This document shows, piece after piece, positions 59,725 to 63,815 of a DNA stretch of 64,000 nt (positions are counted from its first letter, which is position 1; every line of letters starts with the position of its first letter). The notes under the pieces were generated by a model. It was not told the origin of the DNA and ran no database searches. It saw only the letters and a list, made by a program, of their open reading frames with translations. This stretch comes from an uncultured Maribacter sp. (GTDB lineage Bacteria > Bacteroidota > Bacteroidia > Flavobacteriales > Flavobacteriaceae), in NCBI GenBank assembly GCA_947498505.1, contig CANMKG010000004.1, forward strand, positions 241,098 through 305,097, given 5' to 3'. Position numbers and translations under genes: made by a program.

Positions 59725-60459
59725 ATGTCTTTACTAGCAGCAGAAATACTCGGAACAATGTTACTCGTTTTATTAGGAAATGGGGTAGTGGCAAATGTGG
59801 TTTTAAACGGAACTAAAGGCAATAACTCTGGTTGGATTGTTATAACAACTGGCTGGGCATTGGCTGTTTTTGTTGGTGTTGTAGTGGCAGCTCCATATAG
59901 TGGTGCTCATTTGAATCCGGCAGTTACTGTTGGTTTAGCTGTAGCAGGAAAAATAACGTGGGCCGCAGTTCCGGAATATTTGGCTGGTGAAATGATAGGG
60001 GCAATGTTAGGAGCTTTTTTGGTATGGTTGTTTTATAAAGATCATTTTTCTCAAACTCAAGATGAAGCTAGTAAATTGGCATGTTTTAGTACAGGACCTG
60101 CAATAAGAAATCCTTTTTCTAATGTTGTTAGTGAGCTTATAGGAACTTTTGTTTTGGTGTTTGTGATTTTTTATCTCACAGGTTCCGAAATTGAATTAGC
60201 CAATGATGCAAGTGCTAAAATTGGTTTAGGCTCAATTGGAGCTTTACCAGTAGCTTTTTTGGTGTGGGTAATAGGTTTAGCTTTAGGAGGTACCACGGGT
60301 TATGCTATTAATCCAGCCCGTGATTTAGGGCCTCGAATAATGCATGCTATTCTTCCTGTAAAGGGAAGTAGTGATTGGAGTTATGCTTGGATTCCTGTTA
60401 TTGGACCAATTTTAGGTGCTGTAATTGCTGCAGGATTATATATGTTTTTATTAGGCTGA
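59725..60459 (+). CDS. glpF: glycerol uptake facilitator (MIP/aquaglyceroporin)
   Basis: Two NPA motifs: GAHLNPAVTVGLA and GYAINPARDLGPR. Confidence 0.95.
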   Translation: MSLLAAEILGTMLLVLLGNGVVANVVLNGTKGNNSGWIVITTGWALAVFVGVVVAAPYSGAHLNPAVTVGLAVAGKITWAAVPEYLAGEMIGAMLGAFLVWLFYKDHFSQTQDEASKLACFSTGPAIRNPFSNVVSELIGTFVLVFVIFYLTGSEIELANDASAKIGLGSIGALPVAFLVWVIGLALGGTTGYAINPARDLGPRIMHAILPVKGSSDWSYAWIPVIGPILGAVIAAGLYMFLLG

Positions 60460-60484
60460 TTAAAAAAAACAAATATTTAGATAT

Positions 60485-60519
60485 AAAAAAATCCCGATTC
60501 GAAAGAATCGGGATTTTTT
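60485..60519. terminator. bidirectional intrinsic terminator
   Basis: AAAAAATCCCGATTC-GAAA-GAATCGGGATTTTTT between convergent glpF and rplT. Confidence 0.88.
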
Positions 60520-60537
60520 AAGTGAGATATATTGTTA

Positions 60538-60882
60538 TTACTTTACTTTATTTACGATAGCTGAAAAAGCCTCAGGGTGGTTCATAGCTAAGTCAGCAAG
60601 AACTTTTCTGTTAAGTTCTATATTGTTAGCTTTTACTTTACCCATAAACTGTGAGTAAGACATTCCGTGTAATCTGGCTCCCGCATTAATCCGAGTAATC
60701 CATAGAGCACGAAAAGTTCTCTTTTTATTTCTACGGTCTCTATAAGCATATAACATTGCTTTTTCAACCGCATTTTTGGCTACTGTCCAAACGTTTTTAC
60801 GTCTTCCAAAGTAACCTTTGGCTTGCTTCATTACCTTTTTTCTTCTGGCTCTTGAAGCTACTGCATTTACTGATCTTGGCAT
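60538..60882 (-). CDS. rplT: 50S ribosomal protein L20
   Basis: [42 protein letters not shown]. Confidence 0.98.
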
Positions 60883-60973
60883 AATTTTAATGTTTTTTGT
60901 AGTAGGCGGTCAATTTTTTTGACACTTTAAAAGCCTAACTCCAGGGTTAATATTTAATTACCGAAAAAACAAC

Positions 60974-61171
60974 TTACTTCAAACGTAATTGTTCTTTAAT
61001 ACTGTTAACATCTGAATCGTGAACCAATGCAGAATGTGTTAACGCTAGCTTACGCTTTTTAGATTTCTTCGTTAGAATGTGACTCTTAAAAGCGTGCTTT
61101 CTTTTGATTTTACCAGTACCTGTAAGCTTAAAACGCTTTTTAGCACTAGATTTTGTTTTTTGTTTAGGCAT
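60974..61171 (-). CDS. rpmI: 50S ribosomal protein L35
   Basis: [42 protein letters not shown]. Confidence 0.97.
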
Positions 61172-61194
61172 TTTTCCTATTTATTAATTTATCT

Positions 61195-61241
61195 CACTAT
61201 ACTATGCTGAAACTGCCCATATAGTGTAGGCAGAGGTTCAG
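61195..61241 (-). promoter_or_regulatory. potential H-type pseudoknot in the infC-rpmI leader
   Basis: Minus-strand CTGAACCTCTGCC TACACTATATG GGCAGTTTCAG CATAG TATAGTG: stem CTGAA/TTCAG + CTGCC/GGCAG; loop CACTATA (61226-61220) complements downstream TATAGTG (61201-61195). Confidence 0.5.
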
Positions 61242-61284
61242 TATTTTATATTCAAAAGAAACCATATCTGATTTCTCAGTGAAT

Positions 61285-61839
61285 TTATTTTTTTGTTTTA
61301 GGTGCAATAAACATAGTCATTCGTTTTCCTTCAAGTTTAGGCATCTGTTCTACTTTACCTATTTCTTCTAATTCCGAAGCTAAACGCAACAATAATATTT
61401 CACCTTGGTCTTTGTATACAATTGACCGTCCTTTAAAAAACACATATGCTTTTAATTTAGCTCCCTCTTTTAAGAACTTTTCGGCATGTTTCTTTTTAAA
61501 CTCATAATCATGGTCGTCTGTATTTGGACCAAACCTAATTTCTTTTACGACAACTTTAGACGCTTTGGCTTTCATTACCTTTTCACGTTTCTTTTGTTCG
61601 TATAAGAACTTCTTGTAATCTATAATCTTACAAACTGGTGGGTCAGCATTTGGCGAAATTTCAACCAAATCTAATCCTAACTCTTCTGATTTTGCCATTG
61701 CTTGTCGCAATGGATAAACACCTACTTCAACGTTGTCTCCCACCAATCTTACGTTAGGTGCGATAACATTCTCATTGATTTTATGAGGGTTTTTGTTTTC
61801 TCTTCTAGGTTGGGGCCTAAATCTCTTTCGTATTGCTAT
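61285..61839 (-). CDS. infC: translation initiation factor IF-3 (start codon ATA)
   Basis: In-frame N-terminal extension of the listed ORF: (ATA)[43 protein letters not shown]; in-frame TAA five codons upstream of the ATA and no ATG/GTG/TTG between. Confidence 0.9.
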
Positions 61840-61874
61840 GACTTTTGTTTTTTAATTAAACTTAAATTTGTTTT

Positions 61875-63815
61875 CTAAAACGACTTTAAGGTACTATTTA
61901 TTTCGTTAGTGACCAAGTCTGTAAAATCTGTAACGCTCAGAGAACCTAAATCGTCTCCACCATGTCTACGAACAGAAATGGTATTGGCTTCTTCTTCGTT
62001 TTCCCCAACAATCAGCATAAATGGTATTTTATTCATTTCTGCCTCTCGTATTTTCTTTCCAACAGTTTCACTTCTGTTGTCAATGAGGGCGCGAATTTCG
62101 TTATTTTCTAAAGAATTTAAAACTTTTTTAGCATATTTTTCATGTTTCTCACCAACAGGTAGTACTATTGCTTGGTCTGGAATTAGCCAAAGCGGGAAAT
62201 TTCCACCGGTATGCTCCAGTAAAAGTGCAATAAATCTTTCCATACTTCCAAATGGAGCTCTATGGATCATTACTGGTCTGTGCAGCTCATTATCACTGCC
62301 TTTATAGGTAAGATCAAAACGCTCAGGAAGGTTATAATCTACTTGAATAGTTCCTAGTTGCCAGCTTCTTCCTAAGGCATCTTTTACCATGAAATCTAGT
62401 TTAGGGCCATAAAATGCAGCTTCACCACTTTCAACAACAAAATCTAACCCTTTTTCTTTTGCAGCATTAATTATAGCGTTTTCAGCTTTCTCCCAATTTT
62501 CAACTTCCCCAATATATTTCTCTGGCTTTTCTAAATCACGAACCGAAACCTGGGCAGTGAAATTTTCAAAACCTAAAGAACCTAATACATATAAAGAAAG
62601 GTCTATAACGTTTTTAAATTCTTGGTCTAACTGGTCTGGTGTGCAAAAAATATGAGCATCATCTTGGGTAAAGCCTCTTACCCTTGTTAATCCATGAAGC
62701 TCTCCACTTTGTTCATACCTATATACAGTACCAAATTCTGCATATCGCTTTGGGAGTTCTCTGTAGCTAAAAGGTTTGCTGTTGTAAATTTCACAGTGAT
62801 GCGGGCAGTTCATTGGTTTTAACAAGAACTCTTCATCTTCTTTAGGTGTTGTAATTGGTTGAAAGCTATCTTCACCATATTTAGCATAATGCCCTGAAGT
62901 AACATAAAGCTCTTTTTGTCCAATATGAGGCGTAACTACCATTTCATACCCAGCTTTTTTCTGAGCCTTCTTTAAAAACTGTTCCAAACGTTCTCGTAGT
63001 GCAGCGCCTTTAGGAAGCCATAAAGGTAAACCTTGTCCTACCTTTTGCGAAAACGTAAAAAGCTCTAATTCTTTTCCTAGTTTTCTATGGTCGCGTTGTT
63101 TTGCTTGTTCAAGAAGTTCTAAATATTCAGTAAGCTCTTTTTGTTTGGGAAAAGAAATACCATAAACTCTTGTAAGTTGTTTGTTCTTTTCGTCACCTCT
63201 CCAATAAGCTCCTGCAACACTTAATATTTTAATAGCTTTTACAATGCCTGTATTTGGTATGTGTCCACCTCTACACAAATCGGTGAAAGTATCATGGTCA
63301 CAAAAGGTAATTGTGCCATCTTCTAAGCTTTCTATCAGTTCTACCTTAAACTCATTTCCTTGAGATTTGTATAGACTAAGAGCTTCGCTTTTGGAAACAG
63401 CTCTCATTTTAAAATCATGTTTTCCTCTTGCAATCTCCAGAGCTTTCTTTTCTATTATGGGAAAGTCTTTATCTGATATGGGGTTTTCTCCTAAATCCAC
63501 ATCGTAGTAAAAACCATTATCAATAGCGGGTCCAATTGTTAACTTTATTCCTGGATATAACTCTTCTAAAGCTTGCGCGACAATGTGTGATGACGAATGC
63601 CAAAAAGCGGTTTTACCTTCCTTGTCTTTCCATGTGTATAATACTAAAGAACCATCTTCGTGCAATTCGGTTACACTTTCAACGGCAGTATTGTTGAACT
63701 TTGCGGAAATCACATTTCTGGCAAGTCCTTCACTAATACTTTTGGCTACATCTATTACAGCTGTACCTTTATTATATTCTTTAACACTACCATCTGGTAA
63801 AGTAATTTTAATCAT
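61875..63815 (-). CDS. thrS: threonyl-tRNA synthetase
   Basis: TGS domain; [58 protein letters not shown]. Confidence 0.98.

Follow-up and report, generated by a model that had tools for sequence, protein, structure and literature searches.

L20 leaders are documented in Gammaproteobacteria, Firmicutes and Deltaproteobacteria. In Escherichia coli and Bacillus subtilis, L20 represses its own operon (PMC10931766). The E. coli rpmI operator, composed of an L20 pseudoknot and an irregular hairpin, begins with its pseudoknot at the 3' end of infC (PMC6962249), extends over the infC-rpmI spacer and targets rpmI, to which rplT is coupled. The Bacillus L20_leader (RF00558) likewise acts in cis on the infC operon and is bound by L20, but it precedes infC and its mechanism is transcription attenuation. 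The L20 r-leader of Deltaproteobacteria has a scaffold of its own, is thought to be an rRNA mimic, and likewise carries the two consecutive G-C pairs and the AA dimer that characterize L20 leaders (Eckert and Weinberg 2020, PMC7247131). Bacteroidales-1 (RF01693) is also found near rplT, in a Bacteroidales genome (locus L160:1501-1679); however, it is a suggested 6S RNA situated about 0.7 kb downstream of the gene, and for this reason it was dismissed as a candidate for the phylum's L20 leader. No RF01693 match was detected at the locus described here. In a genome of the Flavobacteriales, a sub-threshold match to the same family adjoins an ORF resembling zapA.

Our analysis of an uncultured Maribacter sp. 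indicates that the rpmI-rplT spacer of its thrS-infC-rpmI-rplT operon probably contains a compact L20-responsive leader acting on rplT. This candidate resides in the same operon as the E. coli operator, and translational repression is proposed for it as well, but it is local, about 70 nt long and placed directly before rplT. It also differs from the Bacillus leader in position and in its proposed mode of action, and from the deltaproteobacterial one in lineage and scaffold, the latter since no Rfam model scores it. Searches of freely accessible literature yielded no description of an L20 leader in Bacteroidia, in agreement with the initial annotation of this DNA, according to which no equivalent is known to be described in Flavobacteriia. 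The scaffold, the lineage and the gene affected are thus apparently new, with no Rfam family matching the element, although an earlier description is possible.

The thrS-infC-rpmI-rplT operon

The window, that is, the whole 64,000-nt stretch of DNA analysed, ends with this operon on the minus strand; the coordinates of its features are collected in Table 1. An in-frame stop lies just 5' of position 61839, and no ATG, GTG or TTG follows it ahead of the conserved part of infC. The AUA at 61839 has the look of a non-canonical start that has been conserved, a counterpart of the AUU start of E. coli infC. In nearly all of the approximately 60 family members shown, an AUA (AUA-GCA-AUW) precedes the conserved N-terminus of the protein. 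The ends of numerous draft contigs fall about 3 kb upstream of rpmI, and rRNA genes were found upstream of thrS in two of the three complete or near-complete relatives read.

At gathering thresholds, Rfam recognized only two tRNAs in the whole window. At E<=10, the region 60840-61320 gave nothing credible and no match to RF00558; hits such as snoR17 and STnc450 were rejected as chance matches.

Table 1. Position of the genes and of the observed or proposed RNA features within the window
Feature	Coordinates	Strand	Basis or remark
infC (IF3), 184 residues if translated from the conserved AUA (61839)	61285..61839	minus	
Hairpin CUGAA..CUGCC / GGCAG..UUCAG	61207..61241	minus	RNAfold; covarying arms in about 10 genera
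Proposed pseudoknot CACUAUA (61226-61220) / UAUAGUG (61201-61195)	61195..61226	minus	Present, not conserved
Conserved linear motif AGUGAGAU; family consensus AUAAGYGARAU	61191..61198	minus	Counted in 144 spacers
SD-like AGGA before rpmI	61175..61178	minus	Motif count
rpmI (L35)	60974..61171	minus	ORF; PF01632 match
rpmI-rplT leader RNA, proposed L20-binding element	60893..60964	minus	R1 match, 81.4 bits, E 3.4e-14
Helix P1 GGUAAU (60962-60957) / AUU-A-ACC (60951-60945)	60945..60962	minus	RNAfold of own sequence
Helix P2 GGAGUUAGGC (60942-60933) / GCCUACUAC (60907-60899)	60899..60942	minus	Covariation
AAAGU joining P2 to P3, unpaired and conserved (AA dimer)	60924..60928	minus	
Hairpin P3 GUCAA-AAAAA-UUGAC; its sequence and length vary	60909..60923	minus	Double changes
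rplT (L20), proposed ligand and regulated gene	60538..60882	minus	ORF, orthologue matches; AUG at 60882

The infC-rpmI spacer

The initial annotation had proposed for the 113-nt infC-rpmI spacer (61284-61172, minus strand) a hairpin with the geometry of an H-type pseudoknot, through which L20 or L35 might bind and repress rpmI. Spacer and hairpin are found exactly at the coordinates given there. RNAfold predicted this hairpin together with a second one, with an MFE of -25.6 (z -2.69) that was equalled by 2 of 200 shuffles. The second stable hairpin occupies positions 61284-61250 (minus), immediately 3' of the infC stop, a place where hairpins unrelated in sequence were seen by eye in many genera.

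The rpmI loci sampled came from 7 congeners, about 148 Flavobacteriaceae genera (70 as DNA) and 80 named genomes. In Maribacter and the near genera the spacer follows the pattern ACUGAA-[hairpin]-UUCAGCAUA-nnn-AAGUGAGAU, and a common fold of the hairpin was obtained at the orthologous place in 16 sequences from about 10 genera. The arms of the upper stem vary between genera with compensatory changes: matched arms reached -18.0 kcal/mol versus -10.5 kcal/mol for swapped arms, none of 20,000 permutations being as good, and the helices kept 98.7% and 84% of their pairs (per-pair counting). Of 160 Flavobacteriaceae genera, only about 10 gave a strong match to R3, the model built of this hairpin. 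The hairpin is therefore real and more than chance, but clade-limited. It might have originated as a dispersed REP-like palindrome with no leader function, and palindromes such as ATGCTGAAACAAGTTCAGCAT do occur in the infC-rpmI spacer of other genera (two loci); nevertheless, the genome of origin holds a single strong copy (65 bits; next best 24.9), and the R3 matches above 30 bits are upstream of rpmI with one exception. On account of the single genomic copy this source was rejected, and we regard it as very improbable.

The 7-nt complementarity between CACTATA and TATAGTG proved to be exact, as had been claimed. This perfect 7-bp match in the source species, the covarying arms and the L20 pseudoknot that occupies the equivalent spacer of E. 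coli are all in favor of a regulatory pseudoknot. However, CACTATA is missing from the loop in the eight relatives examined, the nearest congener included; in the latter, whose L35 is 100% identical, TATAGTG is kept, the loop reads ACAAAATG, and the longest match is 3. The pseudoknot helix was 60% paired across 15 sequences (per-pair counting), and about 3% of the shuffled versions of this A+T-rich stretch contain a Watson-Crick match of at least 7 nt between the loop and the downstream segment. The pairing fails the conservation test that the initial annotation had set for it. Given its absence in relatives and this background frequency, the pairing is best taken as accidental, and it is apparently private to the source species. 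A conserved pseudoknot pairing of the E. coli type was not found in the infC-rpmI spacer among the relatives examined. With the hairpin itself so narrowly distributed, we consider repression of rpmI through the pseudoknot highly improbable; the hairpin would be a clade-limited accessory and a secondary site at most.

Two short motifs nearer to rpmI have a wider distribution. AUAAGYGARAU, which is unstructured and family-wide, stands about 20-30 nt before the rpmI AUG; AAGYGAR or AAGTAAG was present in 111 of 144 distinct infC-rpmI spacers, versus 11 expected from shuffles. An AGGA no more than 20 nt from the rpmI AUG was counted in 119 of the 144 spacers, and in none of 103 for rplT. AAGYGARAU plus AGGA, with the clade-limited hairpin in front, is a family-wide rpmI initiation element. 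This AGGA is kept despite the reported lack of SDs in Flavobacteriales r-protein genes other than rpsU (PMC9976891, PMC8710568). Around the rpmI start (61179-61164), CCTA (codon CCU-A) was observed in 66 of 69 sequences with TAGG before the AUG and in 13 of 23 without AGG. The start may accordingly be covered by a UAGG/CCUA hairpin, the association being phylogenetically confounded.

The linear motif raises the question of whether L20 contacts both spacers, as it does the two E. coli sites, with the infC-rpmI hairpin and AAGYGARAU serving as a second site. AAGYGARAU resembles both UaAGUGga of 23S rRNA and GCGAAGUGGAAG before rpmI in E. coli, and its retention in most spacers would fit such a role. 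Still, it is not enclosed by a G-C-capped helix, it was not seen by eye outside Flavobacteriaceae, and purine-rich motifs are common near starts; a second L20 site is for these reasons unlikely in our judgement.

Conservation of the rpmI-rplT spacer

The initial proposal of an L20 leader in this operon is retained here at another place and without the pseudoknot, as the conserved element is in the next spacer, between rpmI and rplT. Its order is P1, P2, an AAAAGU internal loop and P3, with the rplT AUG about 16-17 nt further on, and RNAfold recovered P1-P2-P3 from the window sequence alone. P1 is based on this fold and on the recurrence of GGT..AACC in relatives, noted by eye. P2 contains one bulged U and one G.A and surrounds the linker, AAAGU and P3. 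P3 comes directly after AAG[U/A] and directly before CGCC, with its pairing kept and its sequence free. The stability of the element in the window is not out of the ordinary (z -0.69, RNAfold), which explains why it was missed by a reader of one sequence. At seven loci the linker between P2 and AAAAGU, or P3, bears inserts of about 30-50 nt, often self-complementary, and P2 and P3 are intact.

The rpmI-rplT spacers of nearly every genus contain TAACCCTGGAGTTAGGC ... AAAAGTG ... CGCCTACTACAAAA. R1, the model of the element, matched 99 of the 100 Flavobacteriaceae loci tested, once each and always in the rpmI-rplT spacer; its only strong match in the window is the one in Table 1, and at E<=0.01 it was found once per genome with a match when whole genomes, including that of the source organism, were searched. 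P2 exists in the compensatory variants GUCAGGC/GCCUGC, GUCCGGC/GCCGGC, GUAAGGC/GCCUUC and GUGAGGC/GCCUCC, with all four Watson-Crick types at one position, and an extra pair at its base changes from U-A to A-U. Among 98 distinct sequences of the family, 96.5% of the cells were paired versus 86.9% after column shuffling, double-change cells in P2 and P3 numbered 114 versus 33, and the covariation score was 0.293 versus 0.126; slid registers were 16-46% paired. Three pairs of P3 each showed double changes in 22-40 sequences. Two of the three GGC/GCC pairs of P2 were invariant in the 98 sequences and the third was kept in 96, and in alignment A2 the A-A dimer was invariant and the G reached at least 90%. 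A conserved RNA structure in this spacer is, from these data, practically certain.

Beyond Flavobacteriaceae, we examined 49 loci of other Bacteroidia, most families being represented by a single locus. Of the 49 spacers, 25 conformed to a strict descriptor, versus 3.5% of shuffles, and AAG[U/A] recurred across the class, AAG being required by the descriptor itself. At about E<=0.01, matches to R1 or to R2, a second model, located the element 5' of rplT at 33 or more of the 49 loci, some of which had trained R2; most of the class loci left over from the descriptor were recovered by R2, again before rplT. Class-level pairing was 91.9% versus 65%, with a covariation score of 0.655 versus 0.200. 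Alignments A4 and A5 were fitted to the model, the latter with weak matches among its sequences, and pairing is inflated by this. AGC/GCU variants of the class keep two consecutive G-C pairs, and a minority with AGU/ACU keep one. The element is seemingly absent from about eight of the 49 loci, and R2 gave no match at E<=0.01 in 75 genomes from other classes of the phylum. From its presence in Bacteroidia and the lack of matches in those genomes, the element appears, within these samples and filters, to be ancestral to the class and confined to it.

L20 as candidate ligand and the proposed control of rplT

Both parts of the L20-leader signature, the consecutive G-C pairs and the AA dimer, are present in the rpmI-rplT element, and it lies directly 5' of rplT, the position of an L20 r-leader, across the family and most of the class. 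In the 23S rRNA consensus of Rfam, UaAGUG comes after a helix that ends in gggc and is closed by gccc; AAGGC-CUUC-AAGU ... GCCUU is read in the rpmI leader of E. coli, that is, GGC, 4 nt, AAGU and a distant GCC strand, a long-range pairing that is not in the RNAfold MFE; and the flavobacterial leader reads GGC-linker-AAAAGU-P3-C-GCC. The resemblance of GGC-linker-AAGU-...-GCC to the L20 region of 23S rRNA and to the E. coli leader is suggestive, and only so because AAGU is short and the spacers are A-rich; on the 23S side it concerns one helix of the Rfam consensus with an internal loop, while the rRNA literature puts the C-terminal contact of L20 at helices 40-41 (PMC6962249). Position, signature and likeness together make L20 a very probable ligand, and the element may functionally mimic rRNA.

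The ligand could instead be L35 or another protein, or the element may be real but no L20 switch, acting in RNase processing, in translational coupling or as a site for L35 or another factor. Conservation and position are the support that the element has, and intercistronic spacers commonly host processing; on the other hand, the conservation of GGC/GCC and AAG fits the L20-leader signature, and unpaired nucleotides kept across a class are, as a general judgement, rare in processing hairpins. We therefore hold a function independent of L20 to be quite unlikely.

In the mechanism that we propose for the L20-responsive leader, P2 with its GGC/GCC cap, the AAAAGU loop and P3 would constitute a site similar to the L20 region in domain II of 23S rRNA. 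L20 in excess over free 23S rRNA would bind this site and lock P2/P3, whose 3' strand, at about -26 to -17 from the rplT start, falls inside the 30S footprint; initiation would thus be blocked, since the A-rich initiation region would be closed to 30S subunits, and less L20 would be made. When rRNA is abundant, L20 would be drawn off and rplT translated. Translational repression of rplT by excess L20 is, on balance, the outcome that we favor. Attenuation is unlikely, because a simple consensus scan of 60450-61950 returned no terminator-like site (although it also missed an obvious hairpin-plus-T-run after rplT); by eye, no terminator was visible in the rpmI-rplT spacer, and an intrinsic attenuator of the Bacillus type was rejected.

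Taken as a whole, the idea that a new L20 leader, ancestral to Bacteroidia, controls rplT directly by an rRNA-mimicking scaffold in hosts without SD pairing, with rpmI controlled separately via AGGA and AAGYGARAU, may hold or fail with about equal probability. If true, Bacteroidia, a major gut and marine group, would have their own L20 leader on a further scaffold, and the same minimal contacts on another scaffold would open convergent mimicry of rRNA to direct testing. Such a leader would also illustrate the working of an r-protein repressor where initiation is independent of SD pairing, and would offer both a family ready for Rfam and a target for reporters in Bacteroides and Flavobacterium.
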